The position numbers were made by a program, and so were the translations under genes. From NCBI RefSeq assembly GCF_000380165.1, contig NZ_KB904688.1, forward strand, positions 1 through 38,875: a stretch of 38,875 nt of DNA, read 5' to 3'. Within the stretch, counting starts at the first letter, position 1. Each line of letters opens with the position of its first letter. The notes below the pieces were generated by a model. The model did no database searches and was not told where the DNA came from. It saw nothing but the letters and a program-made list of their open reading frames with translations. Shown in pieces: positions 1,854 through 13,694 of this stretch. This DNA comes from Wenjunlia vitaminophila DSM 41686. Its GTDB lineage: Bacteria; Actinomycetota; Actinomycetes; Streptomycetales; Streptomycetaceae.

Positions 1854-3731
1854 TCACTTGGCGCAGACCTGCTGGTCCGCGTTGACGCGTTGCAGGTCCG
1901 AGGGGGCGGTGGTGGGGGCCGTCAGCGGGATACCCGCTCCCTCGAAGTCCTTGCCCAGGGTGAGAACCATCTCCTCCAGGGGCGCGGCGTCCTTGTTCGT
2001 CATCTTCAGTGCGGTGGGCGGCAGGCCCATCATCTCCGCAAGGGCACGGGCCTGGTCACCCCTGTTGCGGGCGTACTCCAGTGTGGTTTTGGCCACATCG
2101 GCCGGGGCGTTGAGGCCGTTGCTCGACCGGATCACCCCTTGCTCGTTCTGCAGCCAGTTGACGGTCTCCTGAGCGGCACCCATGACACCGCTGCCGTTGA
2201 CCACCCGCACCCGCACGTCGGCGGGCGCCGCCTTGCTCGTCTCCTTCGGCGTCGGCTTCTTCTTGTTCTTCCCCTTCACGTCGGTCAGCGACTGGTCCGC
2301 CCTCACCATCGCGAACACCTGCTTGGCATCACGCTCCTTGAGCACCAGGCGGTTCTTGTCCAGCGGGTCGTCCGCCACCGGGACGGTCGCGAAGGTGATG
2401 TGCTTGGTGTCCACCTTGCCCAGGTCCTTGGCCAGTCCGCTGAGCTTCCTGATGCTCGCTATCCCGCTGTCCACGGTCAGGGAGTTGGTCGCCGCGTCGG
2501 CCAGGTTCCACAGCTTGGTGGGGCTGGTCAGGGTGCCGTTGCCCTTGATCTTGCGGATCATCGAGCTGAGGAACTGCTGCTGCAACGGAATCCTGGTCAG
2601 GTCCCCGCCCTGGCCGACCGAGTGCCGGGTGCGGACGAAGGCCAGTGCCTGCTCGCCCTTGACCACGTGGCGGCCCCTGCTCAGGTTCAGGTGTGAGTCG
2701 GGGTCGTTGATGTTCTTCTCCAGGCACACCTCGACGCCGCCGACCGCGTTGGACATCGTCTTCACCGCGTTGAAGTCGACCATCATGAAGTGGTCGATGC
2801 GAATCCCGGTGAGCTTCTCCACGGTCTTCCAGGTGCAGTCCGGGCCGCGCTCGTTCTGTCCCAGGCTGGTGTTGAACATCGCGCGCGGGGAGCCGGGGAT
2901 GATCCGCTTCTTGTCCTCGGTCTTGCACTCCGGGATCTCCACCATCAGGTCCCGAGGAATGCTCAACGCGGTGGCGTTGGTGCGGTCCTTGGCGACGTGG
3001 AAGAGGAACGTGGTGTCGGCGTGGCCGGGGCTGCCCGTGTCGCCGTACTTACCGTCCTGGCCCTCCCGGGTGTCGGTGCCGATCAGCAGGATGTTCATGG
3101 CGCCCTCGGCGCCGGCGGACGGCCGGTCGTCGCCCAGGTCGGCGTCGTAGGAGTCGATGTTGCCGTTGAAGTGCTGGTAGATGAAGTAGCCGCCGGCGCA
3201 GCCGGCCACGAGCACGAAACCCAGCGTGCCGGCCGTCCAGTGCACCACCCGCCGTTTGACCGACTTGGGACGGCGCCTGCCGGGACCGCCCCGACCGGCA
3301 GCCCGACCACCTCCGGAACGTCCTCCTCCGGAACCGCCACCCCCCGAACGACCGCCACCCGAACGGTCACCGCCGCGCGCCGAGGCCCGTCGGGTACCGC
3401 CGGGCCGGCCGGCGTCCTGCCCGGCGGCGCGGCCCGCGGCCCTGCGGGCGGCGGCCCGCCCCCCAGTGGACGGGCTGTCGGACACCGACCGGTGCTCCGA
3501 CCCGTCCCCCCCGTCGCCCCCGTCGCCCGGGGCGTCGGGGGCGTCCGCCGGGGCGGCGGACCGTCTGTGGTGACCGGGAGGGGTGCCCCCACCTCGGAGC
3601 GGCACCTCAGCGTCCGGGCGGAGCTGGTAACTACCGGTACTGGGATCGAACACCCACTGGTCGGCCGGGTCGGCGTCACCGGACCACTGCCGGTCCCCCG
3701 ATCCGCTGTGCCTACGGCCTTGCGCGTCCAC
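1854..3731 (-). CDS. LCP family protein with long Gly/Arg-rich N-terminus and LytR_C domain (LCP2)
   Basis: A 625-aa LCP protein. The cytoplasmic N-terminus of about 160 residues is unusually long and low in complexity: an Asp/Gly-rich stretch, then Arg/Gly/Ser repeats at about 110-160. One membrane segment follows at about 162-187. The LCP domain shows MNILLIGTDTR, SIPRD, IDHFMMVDFNA, GGVEVC and VRTRH. A LytR_C domain begins at VRVRVVNGSGVMG. The R-x-D-T motif reads HADT, and the distal D-x-x-R-x-x-R-Q motif reads DLTRIPLQQQ, so two conserved Arg positions differ. Outside the membrane there are four cysteines (PEC, GPDC, EVC and a penultimate-region VCAK), the same spacing pattern as LCP1 and LCP3. 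The GTG start gives an N-terminus containing DQWVFDPSTGSYQLR, a plausible docking motif of unknown role. Confidence 0.94.
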   Translation of the reverse strand: MDAQGRRHSGSGDRQWSGDADPADQWVFDPSTGSYQLRPDAEVPLRGGGTPPGHHRRSAAPADAPDAPGDGGDGGDGSEHRSVSDSPSTGGRAAARRAAGRAAGQDAGRPGGTRRASARGGDRSGGGRSGGGGSGGGRSGGGRAAGRGGPGRRRPKSVKRRVVHWTAGTLGFVLVAGCAGGYFIYQHFNGNIDSYDADLGDDRPSAGAEGAMNILLIGTDTREGQDGKYGDTGSPGHADTTFLFHVAKDRTNATALSIPRDLMVEIPECKTEDKKRIIPGSPRAMFNTSLGQNERGPDCTWKTVEKLTGIRIDHFMMVDFNAVKTMSNAVGGVEVCLEKNINDPDSHLNLSRGRHVVKGEQALAFVRTRHSVGQGGDLTRIPLQQQFLSSMIRKIKGNGTLTSPTKLWNLADAATNSLTVDSGIASIRKLSGLAKDLGKVDTKHITFATVPVADDPLDKNRLVLKERDAKQVFAMVRADQSLTDVKGKNKKKPTPKETSKAAPADVRVRVVNGSGVMGAAQETVNWLQNEQGVIRSSNGLNAPADVAKTTLEYARNRGDQARALAEMMGLPPTALKMTNKDAAPLEEMVLTLGKDFEGAGIPLTAPTTAPSDLQRVNADQQVCAK

Positions 3732-3882
3732 GGTCGCCTGTGCCCTCCGTCACTGCCACGCTGCGCCTCCCCAGGACGCTTGATCGGATCTGGTATAGGG
3801 ACGTACTTCGCCCGGCCCGGACCAGGCCGGATGGCTCACCCTAGCCGCCCTGTCCGCGGGCCTGGCACGCCGGTGACACTTT

Positions 3883-3912
3883 CCACTCCCCTGCACGCGG
3901 GGAAAGGAGTGG
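3883..3912 (-). terminator. Hairpin terminator downstream of LCP3
   Basis: CCACTCC (3883-3889) pairs with GGAGTGG (3906-3912), with an inner CCCC/GGGG pairing. It lies 22 bp past the LCP3 stop and upstream of LCP2, on the strand that LCP3 is read from. It has no clear U-tract, as is common in actinomycetes. It may partly separate LCP3 from LCP2 transcription. Confidence 0.5.
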
Positions 3913-3933
3913 CGCGGCGGCACGCCCCGGTAC

Positions 3934-5571
3934 TCATCCTTCACCACAGATGTCACGGTCCGCCGTGGTGCCCCGGAACGCGGGTTCCTCGGTTGACGCC
4001 GGCGGTGACCCCGACGCGGACGAGGAAGCCGAGGCCGAGGGGTCCGGGGTCGCCGCGGACGAGCTCGGCGACGCGGCGTCGTCACCCTCCTCCGCGTCCG
4101 GTTGCCCGCTGGCCACACCCCCCGGTGTTCCCGGCGGCGGGGTGGACCCGGTCGTCTCCGGGGCGGCTGTTGTCTCCTTGTCCCCGCTCGTCTCGCTCAT
4201 CCCTGGGGTCCCGGTCGCCTCCGCGTCCACCGTCTCGGTGCCGGTGGGGGTCCCGGTCCCGTCGTCGTCCTCGTTCACCTGGATCGGCCGGTCCTCACGC
4301 AGCGCGGTGAACAGCGCGCTGGCCTCCGGCTGCACCAACTGGTCGCGGTTGGGGTCCACCACGTAGGGCTCGCGGGGAACGGTCAGGAACACCACGTCCT
4401 GCGTGGGCGTCCGCTCCAGGCCGCGAGCCAGTTTGTACAGCTCGCCCAGCGAGTCGAGGCCCTCGTCGGCGATGAGCGAGGAGGTGGCCGCGTCGAGCAC
4501 GGAGTACAGCTTGGTGGGGTTGAGCAACACCCCACCGCTCTTCACCTTCCGCACCAGGGAGGCGAGGAACTGCTGCTGGCGGTCCATGCGCTGGGTGTCG
4601 CTGCCGTTGCCGATGCTCTTGCGGGCCCGGACGTAGGCGAGTGCGTCCTCCCCCCTCACGGTCTGCCGACCAGCGGGCAGGTCCAGCTTCGCCGCGTCGT
4701 CCCGCACCGCCTCCGGAAGACAGATCTCCACACCGTCCACCGCGTCCACCATCTTCTTGAACCCGGTGAAGTCCATGATCAGGTGGTGGTCGATCCGGAT
4801 CCCGGTCATGTTCTCCACGGTGCGGATCGTGCAGGCCGCCCCGCCGAACTGGAACGCCCAGTTGAACTGCGCGAACTGGGACCTGGTCTCGCCTCCGTCC
4901 GGGGTGGCGCACGCCGGGATCTGCACCATCAGGTCCCGCGGGATGGACATCGCCGTCGCCCCGCGGCGGTCCTCGGCGAGGTGCAGCAGGATGGTGGTGT
5001 CCGAGCGCTGCGAACCCTCGTCACCGCCGTACCGGGCGTTGCTCCCGCTGCGGTCGTCGGAGCCGATCAGCAGGATGTTCTGGGCGTTCTGGTGCTCCAC
5101 CCGGCGCGGGCGTTCGCTTTCGTACTCGTGCAGGATCTGCGCGGTGGCCTCGTCGGTGCGGATGTTGGCGTTCAGTTTGCGGTAGAGCGCGTAGGCCGTG
5201 CCGGCCGTGGCCACCAGCAGCACCGCGGTGCCGATCGCCAGGGCCTTGAGCACCTTTCGCCTCCTGCTGCGGCGGCGCGGGGCCGGGGCCGTCTCCGGGC
5301 CGGCGTCCTGCTCGGAGTCGTCCCCGCCGTCGGGAGGCGTCCCTGCCGAGGTCTCCGGGTCGTCGGGGGCGTCGGCGGGGGTTCCTTCAGTGGCTCGGCC
5401 CGGCGCTTCCCCGTCCTCGGGCGACTCCCCGCCCCGGGGTATCTCCTCCGCCTCGGGTGCCTCCTGTCCCTCCGGCGCACCCCGGCCCCCGGGCCCCTCC
5501 CCGTTCTCGGAGCCCCCCTGCCCGGGGTGGGCCCCGGGGGTGTCCGCTGAGTTGCTCACGTCTGCGCTCAT
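3934..5571 (-). CDS. LCP family protein with Ser/Thr/Pro-rich tail instead of LytR_C (LCP3)
   Basis: A 545-aa LCP protein. An acidic Glu/Gly/Pro-rich cytoplasmic N-terminus of about 100 residues precedes an Arg cluster and a membrane segment (about 107-130). The LCP domain carries the full motif set: NILLIGSDDRSG, RSDT, SIPRD, IDHHLIMDFTGF, GGV-type DGVEIC, VRARK and a following R-x-x-R-Q-Q (QRMDRQQQ). After the LCP domain there is no LytR_C. Instead about 115 residues rich in Thr, Ser, Pro, Gly and Glu end in DICGEG. Such a tail may span the wall or be glycosylated (inference). Four cysteines (PAC, GAAC, EIC, DIC) match LCP1 and LCP2. The ATG start follows AGGGGG. It is the first of the three tandem LCP genes. 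Confidence 0.95.
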   Translation of the reverse strand: MSADVSNSADTPGAHPGQGGSENGEGPGGRGAPEGQEAPEAEEIPRGGESPEDGEAPGRATEGTPADAPDDPETSAGTPPDGGDDSEQDAGPETAPAPRRRSRRRKVLKALAIGTAVLLVATAGTAYALYRKLNANIRTDEATAQILHEYESERPRRVEHQNAQNILLIGSDDRSGSNARYGGDEGSQRSDTTILLHLAEDRRGATAMSIPRDLMVQIPACATPDGGETRSQFAQFNWAFQFGGAACTIRTVENMTGIRIDHHLIMDFTGFKKMVDAVDGVEICLPEAVRDDAAKLDLPAGRQTVRGEDALAYVRARKSIGNGSDTQRMDRQQQFLASLVRKVKSGGVLLNPTKLYSVLDAATSSLIADEGLDSLGELYKLARGLERTPTQDVVFLTVPREPYVVDPNRDQLVQPEASALFTALREDRPIQVNEDDDGTGTPTGTETVDAEATGTPGMSETSGDKETTAAPETTGSTPPPGTPGGVASGQPDAEEGDDAASPSSSAATPDPSASASSSASGSPPASTEEPAFRGTTADRDICGEG

Positions 5572-5650
5572 CCCCCTGGGAGGTCAGTTGCGGGCAGGTG
5601 CTACCGGATTCGGGCCGACAAGAGGGCCAGAACATCTGTGCAGACCACTG

Positions 5651-5666
5651 AACCCCGCTCGGGGTT
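5651..5666 (-). repeat. Perfect hairpin in the LCP3 upstream region
   Basis: AACCCCG, a 2-nt centre and CGGGGTT form a 7-bp perfect inverted repeat about 80 bp upstream of the LCP3 ATG. If transcription starts further upstream this would be a stem in the 5' leader; otherwise it could be an operator. There is no direct evidence for either. Confidence 0.3.
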
Positions 5667-5782
5667 GCCTCGTCTCCCGCACTTCTCTGCGAGCGGGGAC
5701 GACACGTCGCCCGGTGCGGCCCGTCGAGCACGTGGGGTCACGTTCACCGGACCGCCGACGGGCGGGGCCCGGTGAACCGCGC

Positions 5783-5818
5783 ACCCGGACCACCGCGCTC
5801 CCGGGCGGTGGTCCGGGT
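5783..5818 (-). terminator. Strong intrinsic hairpin after the TIGR03089-type gene
   Basis: ACCCGGACCACCG (5783-5795) and CGGTGGTCCGGGT (5806-5818) are perfect 13-bp arms around a 10-nt loop. The hairpin begins 33 bp past the stop of the minus-strand gene at 5851-6606. It separates that gene from the LCP cluster. The stem is long and GC-rich with no T-run, the usual actinomycete form. Confidence 0.75.
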
Positions 5819-5850
5819 CCGGTTGTCCACCGCCGTCGGATCGCCCCCGG

Positions 5851-6606
5851 TCACGCCTCGGCGGGAACGGTCACCCGCTCCTCCTCGCGGCGGCGGCGCA
5901 GCCCGTCGGGGTCCAGCCGGTCCAGGTTACGGCAGAGCACCACGGAGGCATCGACGGCCAGTGGGGCGAGCAACCCCGCGGACAGGCCCGGCCAGGAGTC
6001 CATCGGCAGTCCGGTCAGCAGTCGTCCGCCGCGTTCCAGACCGAGTTCCTCGGCCCCGTCGAGGGCCCGGGCCACCACCTCGCCCGCGGTCAGCCGCAGA
6101 CCGGGGAGCTCCAGCGCGGGCGCTTCCGGGCCCACCGGAACGTGGGGACTGAAGCGGTCGGCCTGCCCGGGGACCTCCGCGGCGTAGTCCACGAAGCCCT
6201 CGGGGACCTGGGGGAACCGCCCGCCCAGGGGCCGCAGCGACAGCGCCACCCGCTCCCCCCGGCAAGCGCGGGCGGCGGGGAGCTGGTCCGGGCCCGCGAC
6301 CACCAGGTCCGCGGAGCCGGGGTCGCCTCCGGGGGCCGCCACGACGCCGACGGTCAGGCAGGCCATGATCCAGACCGCGGTCTGCCAGTGCGCCGGGAGC
6401 AGCAGGACCGCCCGGTCGCCCGGCTCGGCGCCCAGGTCGTCCTGGAGCAGGTTGGCGGTCTTGGCCACCCAGTTGTCGAACGTCGTCACGGACAACTCAA
6501 CCCGTTCTCCTGTGGCGTCGTCGTAGAAGGTGACCAACGGCCGTGCGGCGTCACCCGCGAGAGCGACGCGCAGCAGGTCGGCAGGGGTTTGCGCAGTGGT
6601 GTCCAT
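5851..6606 (-). CDS. TIGR03089 family protein (AMP-binding-enzyme-like)
   Basis: A 251-aa protein matching the actinobacterial family known as TIGR03089, which resembles the N-terminal part of acyl-adenylating enzymes. Visible features are the N-terminal TPADLLRVAL, FYDDATGERVELS, TFDNWVAKTANLLQDDLGAEPGDRV-type segment and LLPAHWQTAVWIMACLTVG. The AMP-binding P-loop (TSGTTGxPKG) and the C-terminal adenylation domain are absent, so catalysis of an ordinary ligase type is unlikely. The function is unknown. The ATG at 6606 is chosen over an in-frame TTG six bases upstream. No Shine-Dalgarno is visible, and a TAGGCT -10-like hexamer sits 9 nt before the ATG, which suggests a nearly leaderless mRNA. 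It lies next to LCP genes, an arrangement I recall from other actinomycetes. Confidence 0.85.
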   Translation of the reverse strand: MDTTAQTPADLLRVALAGDAARPLVTFYDDATGERVELSVTTFDNWVAKTANLLQDDLGAEPGDRAVLLLPAHWQTAVWIMACLTVGVVAAPGGDPGSADLVVAGPDQLPAARACRGERVALSLRPLGGRFPQVPEGFVDYAAEVPGQADRFSPHVPVGPEAPALELPGLRLTAGEVVARALDGAEELGLERGGRLLTGLPMDSWPGLSAGLLAPLAVDASVVLCRNLDRLDPDGLRRRREEERVTVPAEA

Positions 6607-6615
6607 GACCAACAG

Positions 6616-6621
6616 AGCCTA
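6616..6621 (-). promoter_or_regulatory. Candidate -10 element for the TIGR03089-type gene
   Basis: On the minus strand TAGGCT lies 9 nt upstream of the ATG at 6606. This fits the actinobacterial TAnnnT pattern and would give a very short or no leader. No convincing -35 was identified. The divergent module starts at 6784, so this 177-bp gap must hold promoters for both directions. Confidence 0.35.
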
Positions 6622-6684
6622 GGGCCCGACCCGGGCGAGAAAGGGAGGCGCTCTGGAGAATGCCGTGAAAGCCCCGCTCGGACC

Positions 6685-6710
6685 GGGTATGTGACGAGTA
6701 GATCGTACCC
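6685..6710. promoter_or_regulatory. Imperfect inverted repeat upstream of module copy 1
   Basis: GGGTA (6685-6689) and TACCC (6706-6710) form a spaced inverted repeat in the divergent gap between the TIGR03089-type gene and the module. It is a candidate operator for the XRE regulator of the module. The arms are only 5 bp, so support is weak. Confidence 0.2.
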
Positions 6711-6783
6711 TTCTGCGCCTGCCACCACGTCGCTACGGTGCGCAGCAGCTCAGTAACCGGACCAGCGCACTGAAGGGGCGATC

Positions 6784-6993
6784 ATGGCCAGGAGAATCCG
6801 GATGATCGGCACCACCTCGGACAAAACCGGCTGCCCTGCCCTGTTCGAGGACCTCGATACCGGCGAGATTCTCGTCCAGGGGGAAGAGATCACCGATCCG
6901 AGGGACCGTGCGCAGATGCACGGTTACACCGAGGGGGAAACACTCATCGTCGTCCCACGCGAGTTGCTGACCCGCTTCGCACCGAAGGAGTGA
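6784..6993 (+). CDS. Small conserved protein, first gene of the DUF6879/XRE module (copy 1)
   Basis: A 69-aa protein with no named domain that I recognise. It has a Cys-Pro turn near residue 18 (TGCPALFED), a short strand-like segment LVQGEEITD, and ends in GETLIVVPRELLTRF. Small proteins with this CP / LVQG / GET-x-V-x-(V/I)P pattern are, from memory, frequent upstream of DUF6879 genes in Streptomyces and relatives. It begins at ATG after GAAGGGGCG. Its stop overlaps or abuts the DUF6879 start, so the two are probably co-translated. A second, damaged version of its C-terminus is found at 10746-10874. The function is unknown; it might be a ligand-sensing or partner protein for the downstream regulator (inference). 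Confidence 0.8.
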   Translation: MARRIRMIGTTSDKTGCPALFEDLDTGEILVQGEEITDPRDRAQMHGYTEGETLIVVPRELLTRFAPKE

Positions 6994-6995
6994 AC

Positions 6996-7532
6996 GTGCC
7001 CGAACTGCTCAGCTTCGACAGCGTGGAGCACCTCTTCGAGGATTTCCAGCACACCGCCTGGCGGCTCGAGACCCGACGGGGCTACGCCTCTGACCGGCAG
7101 AGCGAGGAGTACCGGCGTTTTCTTCGCGGGGAGGACGCCACCCGGGACCTGAGCGACCCCTGGTACGCGTCGAGACGGAAGCAGACCGCCCAGGGCAAGA
7201 GATTCGAACGCGTGCGACTCGTGGACACCCCACCGACCAAGGGGCAGCTCTACCTCCTACACAGCGCCCAGTTCAACATCGCCGCAGGAGAGGACATCCG
7301 CAACATGTACCGGTCCCATGCACGCAGGTTGGGACTGCCGGATTTCGACTTCTGGTTGTTCGACTCGCGCATACTCATCAAGTTCCATTTCGACGACGAT
7401 GACCACATCCTCGGCGTCGAGCTGATAGAGGAGCCCAAGCAGGTCGTGCGGGCGTGCCAGGCACGGGATGCGGCCTGGCATCACGCCATTCGCAACGAGG
7501 AGTTCAAAGCGCGGGTATTTTCCCCGGGGTGA
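6996..7532 (+). CDS. DUF6879 family protein (copy 1)
   Basis: About 178 aa. Features typical of the family are the N-terminal FEDFQHTAWRLETRRGY, the central RRKQTAQGKRFERVRLV, a segment near ISAGED-type IAAGEDIRNMYRSHA, and the acidic DFDFWLFDSRILIKFHFDDD. The function of DUF6879 is not known to me. The start is set at GTG 6996 because AAGGAG lies 5 nt upstream; an in-frame GTG at 6990 overlaps the previous stop as GTGA and is the alternative. Its own stop overlaps the GTG of the XRE gene as GTGA. It is the middle gene of a tightly coupled three-gene unit. A paralogue is at 10858-11382. Confidence 0.88.
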   Translation: MPELLSFDSVEHLFEDFQHTAWRLETRRGYASDRQSEEYRRFLRGEDATRDLSDPWYASRRKQTAQGKRFERVRLVDTPPTKGQLYLLHSAQFNIAAGEDIRNMYRSHARRLGLPDFDFWLFDSRILIKFHFDDDDHILGVELIEEPKQVVRACQARDAAWHHAIRNEEFKARVFSPG

Positions 7533-8371
7533 GCACCGATTTCCAGCGAGCCCGTGTGGTGCTCGGTGCGCGACTGCGAGAGCTGCGCACCGAGGCCGGG
7601 CTCAACGGCCGGGATTTCGCCGGTCGTCTCGGCTGGCCGCCTTCGAAGGTATCCAAACTGGAGAACGGCAAGCAGACCGCTACTCTCGCCGACGTCGAAG
7701 CATGGGCGCAGGCCTGCGCCCAGCCCGAAGCCGCCGCCGAACTGAAAGGCCGCCTGCGCGGCCTGGAGACCAGTTACCGCAGTTGGCGGCGGCAACTCGC
7801 CGCGGGGCACCGCTCGGTCCAGGAGGCGATCGGCCTCCAGCACGAACGGACCAGCACCTTTCGCGGCTTCACCGGTTCAGTCATACCCGGAATCTTCCAG
7901 ACGGAGGATTATGCCCGACATGTCCTGACCCGCTATGCGGAGTTGCACGGAAACAGCCGCGATGTGGAACAGGGCGTGCACGCACGGCTACGCCGCCAGG
8001 ACAACCTGCACACGCCAGGCAAGCAGTACCGGGTGCTGGTGTGGGAGGCGGCGCTGACCGTGCTGATCTGCCCTCCCGACGTGTTGGCCGAGCAACTGGA
8101 CCAGTTGGTGACGGTGGCCGGCCTTGACACCGTGTCGCTGGGGATCATCCCGCTCGGCGTCCCGGTGCGGATCGCCACCGGCGACGACTTCTGGATACAC
8201 GACGACCGGCTGGTGATCGCGGAGACCTGGCACGCCGAGGTGTGGCTCGACGCCTCGGAGGACGTCGCGCTCTACCACAGGATCTGGGAGACGCTGGACG
8301 AGGCCGCCGTGTACGGTCGGCAGGCACACCGGCTGATAGCCCGCGCGAGGAGGGCCGTCAGCAGCGGCTGA
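7529..8371 (+). CDS. XRE family transcriptional regulator with DUF5753 domain (copy 1)
   Basis: A 280-aa DNA-binding regulator. An N-terminal helix-turn-helix (about residues 8-65; LGARLRELRTEAGLNGRDFA, then WPPSKVSKLENGKQ) is followed by a DUF5753 domain (about 90-275) with the typical ...IPGIFQTEDYARHVL and a late HAEVWLDASEDVALY segment. Relatives in Streptomyces, such as WhiJ-type proteins, act in development and are usually encoded beside small partner genes. The GTG start at 7529 forms a 4-bp GTGA overlap with the DUF6879 stop; longer in-frame starts would run into that gene. It is probably the autoregulator of the three-gene module (inference). Confidence 0.92.
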   Translation: MSTDFQRARVVLGARLRELRTEAGLNGRDFAGRLGWPPSKVSKLENGKQTATLADVEAWAQACAQPEAAAELKGRLRGLETSYRSWRRQLAAGHRSVQEAIGLQHERTSTFRGFTGSVIPGIFQTEDYARHVLTRYAELHGNSRDVEQGVHARLRRQDNLHTPGKQYRVLVWEAALTVLICPPDVLAEQLDQLVTVAGLDTVSLGIIPLGVPVRIATGDDFWIHDDRLVIAETWHAEVWLDASEDVALYHRIWETLDEAAVYGRQAHRLIARARRAVSSG

Positions 8372-8624
8372 CCGGCACGCGGACCGGCCCCGCCCACGAG
8401 GACCCACCGGCCCCCGAGGGAACCCCGTCGGGCCCACCCCCGACGGCCCTGCCCCGCTCCGGGAAGTCCCCGTGGTCACGGAAGAAATCTCGAGCAATCA
8501 GGAAGCACTGGCCCACGCCCTCGGCCTACCTTCCTGCCTAGGGCGGATCTCCCGGCCAGGTGTGCCTCACCGAGCACCGGGCCGGGTTTCGCGCGGTCTG
8601 ATCCGCCCGGAACTGGGAGCCGCC

Positions 8625-9107
8625 GTGACCACCAACCCGTCCCGCCCTCAGGCGGGGACAACGCCGACCAGGACGCCGCGGACCGCTTCTCGGACGCCGC
8701 GGACCACCCGCAGGACACCGCTGAAACAGACGCCGTTGCCCTGGACGCCGCCGTTCGGCCTGGGGATACACCTCCAGCCGGCGGGCGAGTGGTGGGACGC
8801 GGTGAAGGTACCCGCGGGGACCGCCCGCGACGTCCTCGACTGGCTGGGGGCGCGCAGTGGCGCAGTGATCGACGACGACCGGCAACGCGCCTGGTACTGG
8901 CTGGTCCCGCTGGGCACCGCCGCCCAGTGGCTGGTGCCGGGCACCCGGCCCTGCGGCCCGGGCACCTTCGTCGGCGTGCCCGGGACGCTCCAGACCCTGG
9001 GCCCCGGCCCGCACTGGCGGGTGACCATGGCCCCGGACCGGTTCCTCACCGATCCGGACGCGCTGCGGGCGGCACTGGCCACGGCGCGGCTGCGCACGCC
9101 GTCCTGA
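8625..9107 (+). CDS. Conserved actinomycete hypothetical protein
   Basis: A 160-aa protein. The first 45 residues are Thr/Arg/Pro-rich with a loose RTPRT-type repeat. The conserved body runs from FGLGIHLQPAGEWWDAVKVP through DWLGARSGAVIDDDRQRAWYWLVPLGTA to TDPDALRAALATAR. I recognise this body as a protein of unknown function common in Streptomyces and related genera, often near XRE/DUF397-type genes. No enzyme motif or membrane segment is visible. GTG 8625 is chosen because GGGAG ends 5 nt upstream; an in-frame GTG at 8472 would add 51 residues of poor quality. About 250 bp separate it from the XRE gene, so it may have its own promoter. Confidence 0.72.
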   Translation: MTTNPSRPQAGTTPTRTPRTASRTPRTTRRTPLKQTPLPWTPPFGLGIHLQPAGEWWDAVKVPAGTARDVLDWLGARSGAVIDDDRQRAWYWLVPLGTAAQWLVPGTRPCGPGTFVGVPGTLQTLGPGPHWRVTMAPDRFLTDPDALRAALATARLRTPS

Positions 9108-9240
9108 CCCGGCTCGGCCCCGGCCCGGGGTCCCCCGCCGGCCCCCGTGGGGATGCAGACCGATACGGACTCGCATCAAGTCTGCTACAGAACGCGAGGT
9201 CCTTGGTGTTCGAGCCGCGCGACCGTGCACACTCGGGGCC

Positions 9241-10497
9241 ATGAATGAGTGGCCGGACGGTTTCAGCAACGACGATCGGCGCCGCGGCGAATCCGAGCCG
9301 ACGCGCGTCATGGGGCACGTGCAGCGCCAGGGCGGCTACCCCCCTCAGCCGCCGCAGCAGCCGCCGGCCGAGCCCCCACTCCCGCCTTCGTTGTCACCCC
9401 GCCGGGCCGCAGCCGCCGGGGGCGTCCCGCACCAGTCGTCCGGTCCCGGTGGGCGCCCCCCGGGACCCGGCGGTGCCCCCGGCGGGCCGGTGACCAACCG
9501 GCCCGCGGGTGACGGGCGGCGCCGCTGGCCCCGTCGGGTCCTGTGGACGTCCCTCGGGCTGGTCGGCGCACTGATCATCACCACCATCGCCACCTACTTC
9601 TGGGCGGACTCCAAGCTCCACCGGGACGTGGACCTGTCCAAGGTGATCGAGCGGCCCAAGGGCGGCGACGGCACCAACTACCTCATCGTGGGATCGGACA
9701 GCCGGGAGGGGATGTCCGCGGAGGACAAGAAGCGGCTGCACACCGGCTCGGCCGACGGCAAGCGCACCGACTCGGTGATGATCCTGCACGTCGGTGACAA
9801 CGGGAACACGATGATCTCGCTGCCCCGCGACTCCGAGGTGGAGATCCCCAGTTTCCGCGGTTCGGAGAGCGGCAAGCTCTACCCCGGCCAGGGCCGGAAG
9901 GTGAAACTGAACGCCGCCTACGCCGAGGACGGCCCGGAGCTGCTGGTGCGCACCATCGAGGCGGAGACGGGACTGCGCATCGACCACTACGCCGAGATCG
10001 GGTTCGACGGCTTCGCCGACGTGGTGGACGCGGTCGGTGGGGTGGAGATGGACATCCCCCGGGACATCAAGGACTCCAAGTCCGGTGCCGACTTCAAGAA
10101 GGGCAAGCAGACCCTGAACGGGGAGGAGGCCCTGGCCTTCGTCCGCACCCGGTACGCGCTGCCCGGCAGCGACCTGGACCGCACCAAGAACCAGCAGAAG
10201 TTCCTGGCCGCCCTCGCCGACCAGGCCGCCAAGCCGACCACCATCCTCAACCCGTTCAGCTTCTACCCGGTGGCCGGCGCCGGTCTCGACTCGCTGATCG
10301 TGGACAAGGACATGGGCCTGACGGACCTGGCCGAGATGTTCTGGGCGATGAAGGGCGTCACCGGCGGCGACGGGAAGTCGATGAACATCCCGCTGGCCGG
10401 CAGCAACGGCAGCAACCTGCTGTGGGACGAGGCCAAGGTCAAGAAGCTGGTGGAGCAGCTCAACAACGACGAGAAGGTCACGGTCTCGGGCAACTGA
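9241..10497 (+). CDS. LCP family protein without cysteines or LytR_C (LCP4)
   Basis: A 418-aa LCP protein on the strand opposite to LCP1-3. A Pro/Gln/Gly-rich cytoplasmic N-terminus (about 95 residues) precedes one membrane segment (about 99-121). The LCP domain shows YLIVGSDSREGM, RTDS, SLPRDSEVEIP, IDHYAEIGFDGF, GGVEMDIP and VRTRY followed by DLDRTKNQQ. The protein ends shortly after the LCP domain with no LytR_C. It has no cysteine anywhere, unlike the three tandem LCPs. It is therefore likely a different LCP subgroup with its own polymer or timing. The ATG start has only a weak GGGG upstream. It sits between the intact and the decayed XRE/DUF6879 modules. Confidence 0.94.
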   Translation: MNEWPDGFSNDDRRRGESEPTRVMGHVQRQGGYPPQPPQQPPAEPPLPPSLSPRRAAAAGGVPHQSSGPGGRPPGPGGAPGGPVTNRPAGDGRRRWPRRVLWTSLGLVGALIITTIATYFWADSKLHRDVDLSKVIERPKGGDGTNYLIVGSDSREGMSAEDKKRLHTGSADGKRTDSVMILHVGDNGNTMISLPRDSEVEIPSFRGSESGKLYPGQGRKVKLNAAYAEDGPELLVRTIEAETGLRIDHYAEIGFDGFADVVDAVGGVEMDIPRDIKDSKSGADFKKGKQTLNGEEALAFVRTRYALPGSDLDRTKNQQKFLAALADQAAKPTTILNPFSFYPVAGAGLDSLIVDKDMGLTDLAEMFWAMKGVTGGDGKSMNIPLAGSNGSNLLWDEAKVKKLVEQLNNDEKVTVSGN

Positions 10498-10578
10498 CCG
10501 CCCGGCCTCCCTCGGCCCGCCATGCCTCCGCGGCCACACCTCCCGGGTACCGCCCGCCGGGCGCGACTGACCTCCCGT

Positions 10579-10607
10579 GTGAACGGGGCTGGTGCATCTC
10601 CGTTCAC
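10579..10607. repeat. 8-bp inverted repeat downstream of LCP4 / upstream of module copy 2
   Basis: GTGAACGG (10579-10586) and CCGTTCAC (10600-10607) are perfect arms around 13 nt, about 80 bp past the LCP4 stop. It may be a weak terminator for LCP4 or an operator of the decayed module. The rest of 10498-10745 holds no gene I can support; base composition drifts lower in GC toward the module. Confidence 0.35.
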
Positions 10608-10745
10608 CACGGTCGCGCCCCCGGGCGATGCCACGACGGTTGACCTCCCGCGGCCGAGCACCCAGAACCTGATCCCGCCGTTCCCGCTGGACCGGAGAGG
10701 CCAACCGGCAGATCGTCGCCCCCGGCGGCTCGACCAGTTCCACGG

Positions 10746-10874
10746 TTGCGTGCAACGCGGTGCGTCAGCGGTGAGACGCCGACAGACCACGGGCTTCAGA
10801 TCCCCGCTCAAGAAACCCTGGTCGAAATCCCGATGGAACTGATCCAGAAGGCCATTCGTGACAACCTCATCTAA
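10746..10874 (+). pseudogene. Remnant of the small-protein gene of module copy 2
   Basis: Read in frame 3, this stretch ends in QETLVEIPMELIQKAIRDNLI before TAA. It aligns with the C-terminus of the 69-aa protein at 6784-6993 (GETLIVVPRELLTRF): E-T-L, a V/I-P turn and E-L are in register. Like that protein it directly precedes and overlaps a DUF6879 gene, here by 17 nt. Upstream, the frame reads VSGETPTDHGLQIPA, which may match the LVQG-x-x-x-TD part. The Cys-Pro N-terminal half cannot be found in frame. The frame is open back to a TGA at 10641, but the only start-like codon I found in it is TTG 10746. I take it as a degraded or truncated copy, although a short functional 42-aa peptide is not excluded. 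Confidence 0.5.
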
Positions 10875-11382
10875 AACCCTCGGCGACCTATTCGACTCGT
10901 TCAAGCGTGAGGCGTTCCGCCTGGAGACTCTGGACGACTACAGCAGGTCCGGAAATGTCGACGCCTATCACGCCTTCCTGGCCGGGGAGCCGCAGCCGGA
11001 CGACTACAACGCAGGCTGGGTGGAAGAACTCCGCTCACACACTGGACAGGGGAAGCGGATCCACCGGGTGCACATTCTGTCGCGCCCACTCACGGAATAT
11101 CTTCGCTTCGAGCTGGGGTGGGGCTACCGGAAGAACATGACCGGGGGCGAGGAGTTCTTCATCCTCGACACCACCGACAAGCCCAACCCACTGGAGAACG
11201 TCCCGGACTTCTGGTTCTTCGACTTCGAGTCCGTGGCCGTGATGAACTACGACGAGGCCGGGAAGTACCTCGGCTCAGAAGTACTGGGGCCGGAACGGAC
11301 GGCTGAGTTCGCCAGATTCCGTACCACAGCACTCGCGCACGCGGAACCGTTCACCGAATGGTGGGCCAAGTACGGGGCGTGA
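10858..11382 (+). CDS. DUF6879 family protein (copy 2)
   Basis: A 174-aa paralogue of the protein at 6996-7532. The family landmarks recur: FDSFKREAFRLETLDDY near the N-terminus, HTGQGKRIHRVHILSRPLTEYLRFELGWGY in the middle (longest family-like block), an acidic NVPDFWFFDFESVAVMNYDE segment and a C-terminal aromatic EWWAKYG. The reading frame is intact. GTG 10858 follows AGAAGG by 6 nt. The stop overlaps the next GTG as GTGA, exactly as in copy 1. Both of its partners are damaged, so this copy may be an orphan. The function is unknown. Confidence 0.85.
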   Translation: MTTSSKTLGDLFDSFKREAFRLETLDDYSRSGNVDAYHAFLAGEPQPDDYNAGWVEELRSHTGQGKRIHRVHILSRPLTEYLRFELGWGYRKNMTGGEEFFILDTTDKPNPLENVPDFWFFDFESVAVMNYDEAGKYLGSEVLGPERTAEFARFRTTALAHAEPFTEWWAKYGA

Positions 11383-11860
11383 ACAGGGCACAGCTTGGAG
11401 CCGCGCTGCGGGCGCTGCGAGTGGCATCCGGCAAAGAAGCCGAGGCGGTGGCCCGCAGCGCCCTCATGTCTCCGTCCAAGCTGTCCAAGATCGAGAATGT
11501 GAAGCCGGCGCCCAGCGCGACGGACGCAGAGCGCGCCCTGACCGCGATCGGCGTCTCGGACCAGGTCAAGGCGAAGTGCACCCGCACGCGCGTCAGCGAC
11601 AGAATCGACAGCATGGCGTCTGCTCAAGCGGATAGGGTCCACAAGGCCAGCAGGCCGCCGAGGCCCTGGAAGCCCAGATGTCGATGCTGCGGTTGTTTCA
11701 GCCCGCACTAGTTCCGGGACTTCTCCAGACCCCCGAGTACATCCGGGCCATTCTGCAACGCCATAACCTCAGCGAGGCCGTGATCACGCGAACGATCAAT
11801 GGTCGACTTGAACGGCAAGCAGTTCTCTACGACAACACGGTTCGGTTCACGCTCCGCGCT
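11379..11860 (+). pseudogene. Frameshifted XRE-DUF5753 regulator (copy 2)
   Basis: From GTG 11379 (GTGA overlap with the DUF6879 stop) an XRE helix-turn-helix is readable in frame 3: LGAALRALRVASGKEAEAVA, then SPSKLSKIENVKPAPS and ERALTAIGVSD. Near 11614 the family sequence moves to frame 1 (WRLLKRIG), and near 11640 to frame 2 (PQGQQAAEALEAQMSMLRLF, QPALVPGLLQTPEYIRAIL, GRLERQAVLYDN). After about 11845 the DUF5753 similarity stops, and the rest of the domain is missing. At least two frameshifts plus a 3' deletion make this a pseudogene. The decay removes the putative DNA-binding partner of copy 2. Confidence 0.82.
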
Positions 11861-12195
11861 GACCGGCTGCGGCTCAGCGCCACGGGAAGGGTCCTACTTC
11901 CCGTCGCTGTCCGTCCTGGCCGGCTGCGGCACAGAGTCACCGGAACCGTCACCGCGGAGTTCGGAAACGGTGGCGGGTCGGCCAGTCTTCCCAGCCTGGT
12001 CTACGGTCACGACAATTCCTTGCAGTTCCTTGACCTCCGCAGCGGTCGCTCCCACATACGGGAGTACCTGCGAGGATGTGGCCCGGCCACCGTACATCTC
12101 GATACGCGCGCACACCTTTTCGGTAGGGGGAAGTGGCTGCCGTGAAGGCGGCCGACGGTATCTCTTCCGTTATCGTCTCCGAGCATTCGGACGGT
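11861..12195. other. Degraded sequence of unclear origin
   Basis: No intact gene is supported here. One forward frame stays open from the DUF5753 fragment to 12145 without recognisable family features. Another shows two lipobox-like turns (LTGCGS, LAGCGTESPEP), which could be a lipoprotein relic. The antisense frame 11894-12115 is also open but has no recognisable similarity. Composition is lower in GC than the neighbours. I read it as decayed mobile-element cargo. Confidence 0.4.
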
Positions 12196-12440
12196 GCCAG
12201 GCACACCGCGACTCTGAGCGTCTACCGCACGACGTTGTGGCTGCGGTCAGGCCTGCTGTATGCCGGCGTCCCCGAAGGACCACGTGGCGGACTGGATGGG
12301 CCACAGCAGCACGGACGTGCTCCGGGAGCACTGCCACGACACCTGTGAGGGCGCCGAGCAGCGCGGCCGAGCGGCCGTCGCAACCATGCTGACGCCCGGC
12401 GCGGGTGCCCCCGACGATCCCGCAGAGGCGTCAGAGGTCG
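12196..12440 (+). pseudogene. C-terminal relic of a tyrosine recombinase (phage-type integrase)
   Basis: A frame-1 segment (LRSGLLYAGVP) runs into a frame-2 segment (KDHVADWMGHSSTDVLREHC, then HDTCEGAEQRGRAAVATML). Together they match the end of actinobacterial tyrosine recombinases: the helix before box II (SLLYAGV-x-PKDVADWMGHSS) with the conserved G-H, then the nucleophile helix. A +1 frameshift lies at about 12275. The position of the catalytic tyrosine, ten residues after the GH histidine, is Cys (TGC). The N-terminal arm-binding and core domains are gone. It marks the right end of a decayed integrative element that probably brought module copy 2. Confidence 0.6.
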
Positions 12441-12450
12441 CCTGGTCCCC

Positions 12451-12495
12451 ATGCGACGACAGCCCCCGGCGAGTTGCCGGGGGCTGTCGTCGCAT
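12451..12495. terminator. Very strong 20-bp-arm hairpin downstream of the acyl-CoA dehydrogenase gene
   Basis: ATGCGACGACAGCCCCCGGC (12451-12470), a 5-nt loop, and its exact reverse complement (12476-12495). It starts 35 bp past the stop of the minus-strand dehydrogenase gene and faces the integrase relic, so it would work in both directions. A further inverted pair, GTCAGAGG (12430-12437) and CCTCTGAC (12509-12516), flanks it. Confidence 0.88.
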
Positions 12496-12530
12496 GTGCT
12501 GGAAACCGCCTCTGACCTGCAAAAACCATG

Positions 12531-13694
12531 CTACGGCAGGTTCCTGGCCATCACGATCCGCTGAACCTGGTTCGTGCCTTCGTAGATCTGCGTGATCTTG
12601 GCGTCACGCATCATCCGCTCCACCGGGTAGTCCCGGGTGTACCCGTACCCGCCGAGGAGCTGCACCGCGTCGGTGGTGATCTCCATCGCGGCGTCAGAGG
12701 CGTAGCACTTGGCGGCGGCGCCGAAGAAGGTCAGGTCGCCGTCGCCCCGTTCTGACCTGGCCGCCGCGGCGTAGGTCAACTGGCGGGCGGCCTCCAGCTT
12801 CATCGCCATGTCGGCCAGCATGAACTGGACGCCCTGGAAGTCACCGATCGGCCGGCCGAACTGCTTGCGTTCGGCCACGTAGCCCTTGGCGTAGTCCAGC
12901 GCCCCCTGGGCGATCCCCAGGGCCTGGGCGGCGATGGTGATCCGGGTGTGGTCCAGGGTGCGCATCGCGATGGCGAAGCCGGTGCCCTCCTCGCCGATCA
13001 TGCGGTCGGCCGGGATGCGGACGTTGTCCAGGTAGACCTCCCGGGTCGGCGACCCCTTGACGCCCAGTTTCTTCTCCGGCGCGCCGAACGACACGCCCTC
13101 GTCGGACTTCTCCACCACGAAGGCGCTGATGCCCTTTGAACGCTTGTCCGGGTCGGTCACCGCCATCACCGTGTAGTACTCGCTGTGCCCCGCGTTGGTG
13201 ATCCAGCGCTTCACGCCGTTGAGGACGTAGTGGTCGCCGTCCCGCACCGCCCGGGTCTTCATCCCCGCGGCGTCCGACCCCGCGTCGGGCTCGGACAGGC
13301 AGTAGGAGAACAGCACGTCCCCCTTGGCCAGCGGCGGCAGGTAGCGGCGCTTGAGCTCTTCGGACCCGGACAGGATCAGCGGCAGGGAGCCGAGCTTGTT
13401 GACCGCGGGGATCAGCGAGGAGGACGCGCAGGCCCGGGCCACCTCCTCGATCACGATCACGGTGGCCAGGGCGTCGGCGCCGGCACCGCCGTACTCCTCG
13501 GGGACGTGGATCGCGTGCAGGTCGGCGGCGACCAGGGCGTCCAGCGCCTCCTGGGGGAAGCGGGCCTCCTCGTCGACCGCGGCGGCGAGGGGGGCGATCT
13601 TCGCTTCGGCGAGGCCGCGCACCGACTCACGGAGCAGTTCGTGCTCCTCGGTGGTCCGGAACAAGTCGAAGTCTGTGTTTCCGTAGCTCCCCAC
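12531..13694 (-). CDS. Acyl-CoA dehydrogenase
   Basis: A 387-aa FAD-dependent acyl-CoA dehydrogenase, the usual family length. It should oxidise an acyl-CoA to the 2-enoyl-CoA with an electron-transfer flavoprotein as acceptor. Visible landmarks are EYGGAGAD (N-terminal domain), YCLSEPDAGSDAAGMKTRA and KRWITNAGHSE (FAD and substrate-binding beta domain), RTLDHTRITIAAQALGIAQG, and the C-terminal QLLGGYGYTRDYPVERMMRD and QIYEGTNQVQRIVMAR. The Glu of YEGT (about residue 372) is the catalytic base position. The chain-length preference (short-chain, branched-chain or methylbutyryl type) cannot be settled here. The GTG start follows GAGAGGTGAG. Its promoter region faces ugd. Confidence 0.95.
   Translation of the reverse strand: MGSYGNTDFDLFRTTEEHELLRESVRGLAEAKIAPLAAAVDEEARFPQEALDALVAADLHAIHVPEEYGGAGADALATVIVIEEVARACASSSLIPAVNKLGSLPLILSGSEELKRRYLPPLAKGDVLFSYCLSEPDAGSDAAGMKTRAVRDGDHYVLNGVKRWITNAGHSEYYTVMAVTDPDKRSKGISAFVVEKSDEGVSFGAPEKKLGVKGSPTREVYLDNVRIPADRMIGEEGTGFAIAMRTLDHTRITIAAQALGIAQGALDYAKGYVAERKQFGRPIGDFQGVQFMLADMAMKLEAARQLTYAAAARSERGDGDLTFFGAAAKCYASDAAMEITTDAVQLLGGYGYTRDYPVERMMRDAKITQIYEGTNQVQRIVMARNLP

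Follow-up and report, generated by a model that had tools for sequence, protein, structure and literature searches.

A stretch of 38,875 nucleotides of Wenjunlia vitaminophila DSM 41686 (contig NZ_KB904688.1, positions 1 to 38,875; hereafter the window) carries two copies of a module composed of a gene for a small protein, a DUF6879 gene and a gene for a regulator that joins an XRE-type helix-turn-helix (HTH) to a DUF5753 domain (XRE–DUF5753). The three genes are a conserved operon-like unit, found in relatives, on plasmids and in viral contigs. We lean slightly toward reading this unit as a WhiJ-like cassette that is mobile and regulates itself; in it, the small protein and DUF6879 (small–DUF6879) would replace BldB (DUF397) and pair with a phospholipase D (PLD)-like domain of the regulator. 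Autoregulation, DUF6879–DUF5753 pairing and ligand control are the parts of this reading that we infer.

Copy 1 consists of three open reading frames (ORFs) on the forward strand. The first (6784..6993) encodes a 69-aa small protein, the counterpart of the N-terminal domain of fused small–DUF6879 proteins in relatives, which had no Pfam, PHROG, PADLOC or NCBIfam match at the limits used. DUF6879 (PF21806) follows at 6990..7532 (Pfam E = 1.5e-52, 177.9 bits versus a cut-off of 23.9), and the XRE–DUF5753 regulator, an HTH with a predicted PLD-like C-terminal domain, at 7529..8371 (Pfam DUF5753 1.5e-35, HTH_31 6.9e-15). Both junctions are 4-nt GTGA overlaps. Copy 2 lies on the same strand and begins with a small-protein remnant (10746..10874) that has lost its N-terminal third: in tblastn searches with four intact relatives (62–63 aa), it aligned from residue 22 or 23 to their ends with 56–73% identity over 10749–10871 (E 7e-18 to 2e-12). 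Its DUF6879 gene is intact (10858..11382; Pfam E = 1.2e-45, 155.4 bits versus 23.9) and is joined through GTGA at 11379–11382 to a frame-broken XRE–DUF5753 gene (11379..11872; HTH_31 2.7e-14, partial DUF5753 6.2e-13). Homology of the latter to intact relatives runs through three frames from 11385 to ~11872 and ends at residue 154–167 of 268–270; the C-terminal ~100 residues were not found by tblastn with these relatives. ORFs, Pfam and tblastn thus agree with the first-pass annotation, made from the letters alone, that copy 1 has three overlapping genes, that copy 2 keeps a remnant small gene, an intact DUF6879 and a broken XRE gene in the same order, and that the GTGA overlap between DUF6879 and the regulator is present in both.

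The distribution of the module was surveyed in relatives, species genomes and viral contigs. DUF6879 was present in 46 of 61 genomes (the own genome and 60 relatives; E 0.001) and in three of 119 genomes sampled across the phylum (E 1e-15), the own genome and one of its family included. Around 105 DUF6879 matches (100 loci and the window), the small protein was close upstream in 94, XRE–DUF5753 close downstream in 91 and both in 88. Counting DUF6879 matches above 60 bits, complete modules were found at 90/108 matches in relatives, 74/89 in species genomes and 112/121 in viral contigs; all three individually picked records (phage Kromp, a Nocardia farcinica plasmid and a Streptomyces cynarae plasmid) were complete as well. 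The first-pass suggestion of a tightly coupled functional unit is strongly supported by these numbers: DUF6879 genes mostly occurring alone had been named beforehand as the contrary outcome, and the majority were complete in all three samples. Among the nine incomplete viral matches, five lay at contig edges, one was without the small protein and three (L398, L408 and L409) encoded a fused small–DUF6879 with the XRE gene upstream instead, so that the order was swapped and the coupling kept. Both partners were missing nearby at 11 of the 89 species-genome matches, of which one lies at the edge of a contig.

Loci of relatives were fetched for DUF6879 matches down to E 3e-38, minus three (in G006, G022 and G028), and were later supplemented with eight weaker matches that cover most of the profile and with 12 that are weak and partial, other partial matches being excluded; L427 and L428 are outside all counts. 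The species-genome contigs are the 80 best out of 381; they and the first viral set are biased to copy-1-like sequences, while the other viral sets were obtained with a query from a second subfamily and with a single match of a third. A full-text search of 5.39 million papers, not including subscription papers or preprints, found no mention of DUF6879.

Tight spacing is the family rule and the GTGA overlap is not. Taking the start codon nearest to the stop, 4-nt overlaps occurred at 25 of 91 DUF6879-to-XRE junctions (23 GTGA and 2 TTGA) and at 4 of 94 small-to-DUF6879 junctions. The copy 1 small-protein profile matched upstream of most surveyed DUF6879 genes, and at 64 loci the small protein and DUF6879 shared one open frame, with a linker of 20–21 aa in 54 of them (67 fused loci with those added later, 57 from copy-1-like sets). 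The shared frame at these loci indicates that the two proteins act as one unit; in window copy 1 they are two ORFs. Two consecutive small-protein matches preceded DUF6879 at L038, L041 and L043.

To compare folds, AlphaFold2 models were made of the fused small–DUF6879 protein of Nocardiopsis potens (L178; pLDDT 94.6, pTM 0.85) and of the window copy 1 XRE–DUF5753 protein (pLDDT 95.3, pTM 0.83). On these models, DUF6879 and DUF5753 both appear to adopt a PLD-like fold without the HKD motif. The best Foldseek matches of the fused model in the PDB belonged to the PLD family, with mouse Zucchini at E 2.8e-4 and a TM-score by target of 0.52. VIA aligned it to SauUSI (Z 11.4, root-mean-square deviation (r.m.s.d.) 4.2, 147 aligned), Nuc (Z 10.7, r.m.s.d. 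3.5, 129 aligned) and TrmBL2 (Z 10.0, r.m.s.d. 3.3, 121 aligned); the 50 matches listed were all proteins with PLD-like domains, many of them PLD-type by title. PLD-like domains are also present in SauUSI, BfiI, the NgoAVII protein, FAM83, TrmB, vaccinia F13 and polyphosphate kinase. These fold searches barely test the small domain. For the regulator, the Foldseek match at E 0.001 or better was a phospholipase D (8.3e-4), and VIA aligned the DUF5753 part to SauUSI (Z 10.9, r.m.s.d. 3.0, 143 aligned), NucT (Z 10.7, r.m.s.d. 3.0, 135 aligned), FAM83B (Z 10.7, r.m.s.d. 3.2, 137 aligned) and TrmBL2 (Z 10.2, r.m.s.d. 2.9, 125 aligned); the list also holds HTH matches to the opposite end of the protein. 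A sequence search of solved chains returned only chance-level matches for L178 at E 1 and only HTH-region matches for the regulator at E 0.001. Literature passages on DUF5753 (PMC10364602 among them) make no mention of a PLD fold and give no function for the domain.

Profile comparison linked DUF6879 to the regulator encoded beside it. With hhalign, DUF6879 aligned to the module XRE proteins with a probability of 93.6 and a score of 51.5 over 58 columns in the C-terminal halves, compared to 14.6 for the reversed control and at most 21.1 in 20 column shuffles. DUF6879 looks closer to the regulators of the modules than to DUF5753 proteins from elsewhere, because module XREs, drawn at random in ten subsets of 27 sequences (score 47.6–56.8, probability 91–95), outscored 48 non-module XREs (score 38.0, 73%). 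The lineages were then compared in a set of 261 modules (DUF6879 above 100 bits, small protein above 30, XRE above 200; identical sequences taken once). Of four cut-offs, 0.65 gave the best agreement between DUF6879 and DUF5753 lineages, which matched in 259 of the 261 modules (121/121, 118/119 and 20/21); cut-offs of 0.55 and 0.60 divided the lineages more finely and left two modules in a mixed cluster. Distances in the two domains correlated at 0.88, the best of 500 permutations reaching 0.04. Across 111 module pairs from the same genome, DUF6879 distance correlated with that of DUF5753 at r 0.83 and with that of the HTH, a shorter and noisier region, at r 0.70; the corresponding ranges within clades were 0.68–0.80 and 0.51–0.75. 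This shows that the gene lineages hardly reassort, which does not by itself prove contact. The proposal that weak DUF6879 matches in proteins of 350–470 aa are XRE regulators was dropped, as none matched the XRE profile. A weak DUF6879-like stretch was found at L324–L334, several with a TrmB/LuxR-type HTH and two with the DUF6879 match alone, which may point to a broader family of PLD-like sensors.

The regions upstream of the modules contain periodic direct repeats. Exact 6-mer repeats at an offset of 10 occurred in 98 of 212 module upstream regions, with 13.8 expected under a first-order model; they were found in 54 of 100 clade 1 and 40 of 91 clade 3 regions, and clade 2 was not enriched. 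Offsets up to 39 otherwise deviated from expectation by no more than about twofold, apart from 9, 19, 21, 27, 28 and 31, all near multiples of 9 to 10. The repeat sequence varies between modules, and sets of at least three copies spaced by multiples of 10 are rare (4 of the 98 regions; 0.4 expected). Ahead of gp31 in Kromp, GTGCA occurs three times with a spacing of 19 and 10 bp. Passages of the report on WhiJ9 (PMC10294661) describe its binding to three direct repeats at its own locus, with the 10-base consensus CGXXCTCAAC. By analogy, the period-10 repeats recall the WhiJ9 operator and are candidate operators. Inverted-repeat operators were rejected, as the commonest 5-mer pair was found in just 10 of 212 regions. 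Nor did operator sequence convincingly track the HTH: the correlation was weak (r 0.35; best of 1,000 permutations 0.13), and within clade 1 it was 0.30 (best permutation 0.22), no better than that with DUF6879 (0.34), so that the signal is inseparable from shared descent.

In the WhiJ-like cassette that we propose, the XRE protein would bind the upstream repeats, much as WhiJ9 binds repeats at its own locus, and would control its own operon. Small–DUF6879 would serve as the BldB stand-in, the partner of the regulator, and would dock on the DUF5753 domain; docking is proposed since pairing is common among PLD domains. Ligand binding by either PLD-like domain would alter pairing and hence DNA binding, and small–DUF6879 would, by analogy with WhiJ9 and BldB, restrain or license the regulator. 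Since mobile elements carry the module as cargo, it probably benefits the element or its host (through immunity, lysogen fitness or host control) and is probably not a housekeeping function. Among the purposes suggested in the first-pass annotation, ligand sensing or regulation fits best with PLD-like folds lacking the HKD motif and with WhiJ-like repeats.

Several results weigh against this proposal. The upstream region of copy 1 itself has no period-10 repeat (best 5 of 10), and no exact offset-10 6-mer was found in 114 of 212 modules. At E 0.001 or better, Foldseek returned five matches for fused L178 and one for the XRE protein, and nothing at E 0.001 when L178 was searched against a viral protein model library. 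The hhalign link spans only about 58 columns, falls to a score of 26.6 (12%) with 26 other XREs of this genome and is uneven clade by clade, ranging from 6% to 89%; clade 2 gave 6% with its own XRE, and none of the three clades had its cognate clade as best match. Agreement between the lineages varies with the cut-off, all DUF5753 domains merging at 0.70, and co-inheritance in an operon would alone match the lineages without contact. In three genomes from the same taxonomic order (L034, L036 and L039), a gene that we read as formyltransferase-like replaces XRE, starting 4–80 nt after small–DUF6879, which can therefore couple to a non-XRE gene. The small protein, expected from the strand pattern to be a remote DUF397/BldB, gave hhalign probabilities of 0.31 (local) and 0.14 (global) against DUF397, the global value falling inside the shuffled range, and that idea was rejected.

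Plasmid records with DUF6879 numbered 92, of which 82 are from Streptomyces. Kromp was the sole match among phage records and carries the whole set as gp31-30-29. These genes have the annotated tail/lysis genes on one side and the integrase/repressor region on the other, and they run in the opposite direction to the lysis genes. Of 94 viral contigs 30 kb or longer (L415 excluded), 70 had the match within 5 kb of an end, with 19.7 expected if positions were uniform; the split was 59 of 70 for isolate genomes (14.6 expected) and 11 of 24 for metagenomes (5.1 expected). Tail or lysis-type clusters lay within 4 kb of 46 of 77 non-redundant viral modules, compared to 2 of 137 others. The end position looks like a cargo site, although contig trimming could contribute to the pattern. 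A tyrosine integrase beside most modules was considered and rejected (2 of 121 viral matches), in an insensitive search with two seeds that found three proteins and one protein.

A possible, clearly less favored account takes the two non-HKD PLD-like proteins as a mobile sensor: DUF6879, as a headless relative of the sensor domain of its regulator and with the small protein as cap, would heterodimerize with XRE–DUF5753. Through this pair, which would stand in for the BldB partner of chromosomal WhiJ systems, a prophage or plasmid could detect infection or the state of its host and then exclude rivals or bend host development. Somewhat more doubtful is a role in anti-phage defense or superinfection exclusion by prophages and plasmids, with a ligand or phage product sensed and DUF6879 as the effector. 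Completeness on viral contigs, the position of gp31-30-29 in Kromp, the clustering near ends of isolate-genome contigs, the neighboring tail and lysis-type genes and the highly conserved charged residues of DUF6879 all speak for it. Against it, neither DUF6879 nor the small protein matched a PADLOC model, the contig ends may be trimming artifacts and 137 of 214 non-redundant modules come from non-viral sources.

The conserved residues also invite the view, which we regard as unlikely, that DUF6879 is an enzyme with an active site rebuilt in the PLD fold (E27, R74, E101, D120 and D125) and that XRE merely regulates it. E27, R74 and D125 were invariant in 303 of 303 non-redundant sequences and G100, E101 and D120 were present in 301; the few loci at which small–DUF6879 precedes a gene other than XRE also agree with this view. 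The HKD string (HxKxxxxD) was, however, nearly absent, with 2 of 261 DUF6879 and 1 of 261 DUF5753 domains containing it, so that the domains do not qualify as catalytic PLDs. In the hhalign register, DFWLFD (DUF6879 120–125) pairs with DFWIHD (window XRE 220–225), a correspondence that suggests a shared structural or ligand role, and the fold matches include binding domains such as the TrmB sugar-binding domain.

The first-pass annotation had called the module duplicated, which was not borne out. The two copies are ~3 kb apart in the window and their DUF6879 proteins are 29% identical, which rules out a recent local duplication. The nearest relatives of copy 1 (~65%) come from a Streptomyces plasmid and from genomes of Streptomyces and Streptosporangium, and those of copy 2 are L124 (75%; elsewhere in G006, a genome of another genus of the same family) and the viral contig L416 (73%). 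Given this low identity and the closer relatives of each elsewhere, sequence comparison indicates that the copies are two independent, distant members of one family.

Copy 2 is flanked by an LCP gene (PF03816) and an acyl-CoA-dehydrogenase-like gene, and this interval was compared in ten relatives by tblastn with window proteins as queries (E 1e-8). In a genome of the same genus (G001), the matches to both flanking genes were 135 bp apart and the interval was empty. G013 has in the interval an intact module gene pair, a DUF6879 60% identical to that of copy 2 with an XRE gene (L127), and G006 has a different DUF6879 (41%) with XRE; no DUF6879 was found there in the remaining seven. Occupancy in 3 of 11 genomes, the window included, by at least two kinds of module therefore marks a variable spot. 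The intact DUF6879 of copy 2 had seemed odd next to a lost regulator; it is less so in an interval that is gained or lost among relatives, because of which the decay may be recent. Its dN/dS of ~0.16 against L124 (intact pairs, 0.16–0.31) does not distinguish recent decay from continued use. Between the copies lies an ORF of 211 aa (8472–9107) without a Pfam or NCBIfam match. The region 3934–13694 has two LCP genes where relatives have more, and its gene order is unlike that of relatives, whose two flanking metabolic genes face each other, pointing to a rearrangement near copy 1.

Elsewhere in the genome, a third DUF6879 gene (L093) is intact and without a small-protein or XRE partner in the module arrangement; at 2589–5351 of that locus, an XRE–DUF397 pair, a 334-aa methyltransferase-like gene and this unpaired DUF6879 stand in a row. 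The addiction unit raised in the first-pass annotation is weakened by such cases: a type II toxin–antitoxin system, with DUF6879 or the small protein toxic and XRE as antitoxin and autorepressor, would suit a compact operon-like unit on plasmids and in a phage and the prediction, in passages of PMC2701414, of related XRE–DUF397 pairs as toxin–antitoxin systems, but is improbable, as intact DUF6879 persists without an adjoining intact XRE in copy 2, L093 and other genomes (11 of 89 species-genome matches lacking both partners), the frequent single chain of small protein and DUF6879 leaves no separate toxin pair from these two, and overexpression of 14 DUF397 proteins, a different partner family, had no clear effect on viability according to passages of PMC10364602.

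Compared to known systems, the module resembles type II toxin–antitoxin loci in its small operon, its XRE-type regulator and its presence on plasmids and in a phage, and differs from them in the recurrence of intact DUF6879 with no intact regulator adjoining it and in the frequent fusion of its first two proteins. PADLOC models gave only HTH-type matches for XRE (best E 2e-6). The DUF1669 domain of FAM83, which is not known to be a classical phospholipase, shares the PLD-like fold and was among the top VIA matches to both models; it belongs to a eukaryotic family and gave no sequence match among solved chains. TrmB and TrmBL2 likewise place a PLD-like domain, as judged from the VIA fold match, in a DNA-binding regulator, and weak DUF6879 profile matches occur in actinobacterial TrmB/LuxR-type proteins. 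The module differs from these in its XRE-type HTH and in that DUF6879 stands apart as a PLD-like protein of its own, fused to or paired with the small domain.

The closest parallel is WhiJ–BldB, including iosA-whiJ9-bldB9, which has the same regulator architecture of XRE HTH and DUF5753 and a compact partner gene. Several copies per genome and occurrence in filamentous actinomycetes are further likenesses, and the direct repeats upstream of many members may be another. The partner in the module is small–DUF6879 instead of DUF397, and it is encoded upstream of XRE instead of downstream. The genome has a large set of WhiJ–BldB-type pairs (37 DUF397 and 33 DUF5753 matches): DUF397 follows within ~300 bp at 28 of the 31 other DUF5753 matches and stands beside neither window copy, none of the 37 lying on contig C54, and just 6 of 276 complete modules have DUF397 within 400 bp. 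Because DUF397 is absent beside most modules, we place the module as a WhiJ-like variant and not as a member of WhiJ–BldB. AbaA or IosA was not recognized as a constant module member, no profile search for either having been made. In passages of PMC10294661, WhiJ9 is required for iosA activation upon BldB loss, and passages of that report and of PMC10364602 describe effects of DUF5753 regulator relatives on development and antibiotic production in Streptomyces. DUF5753 regulators are numerous, as the 33 matches in this genome illustrate, and the predicted PLD-like fold of DUF5753 and DUF6879, the pairing hypothesis and the candidate operators make the BldB/WhiJ puzzle partly testable.

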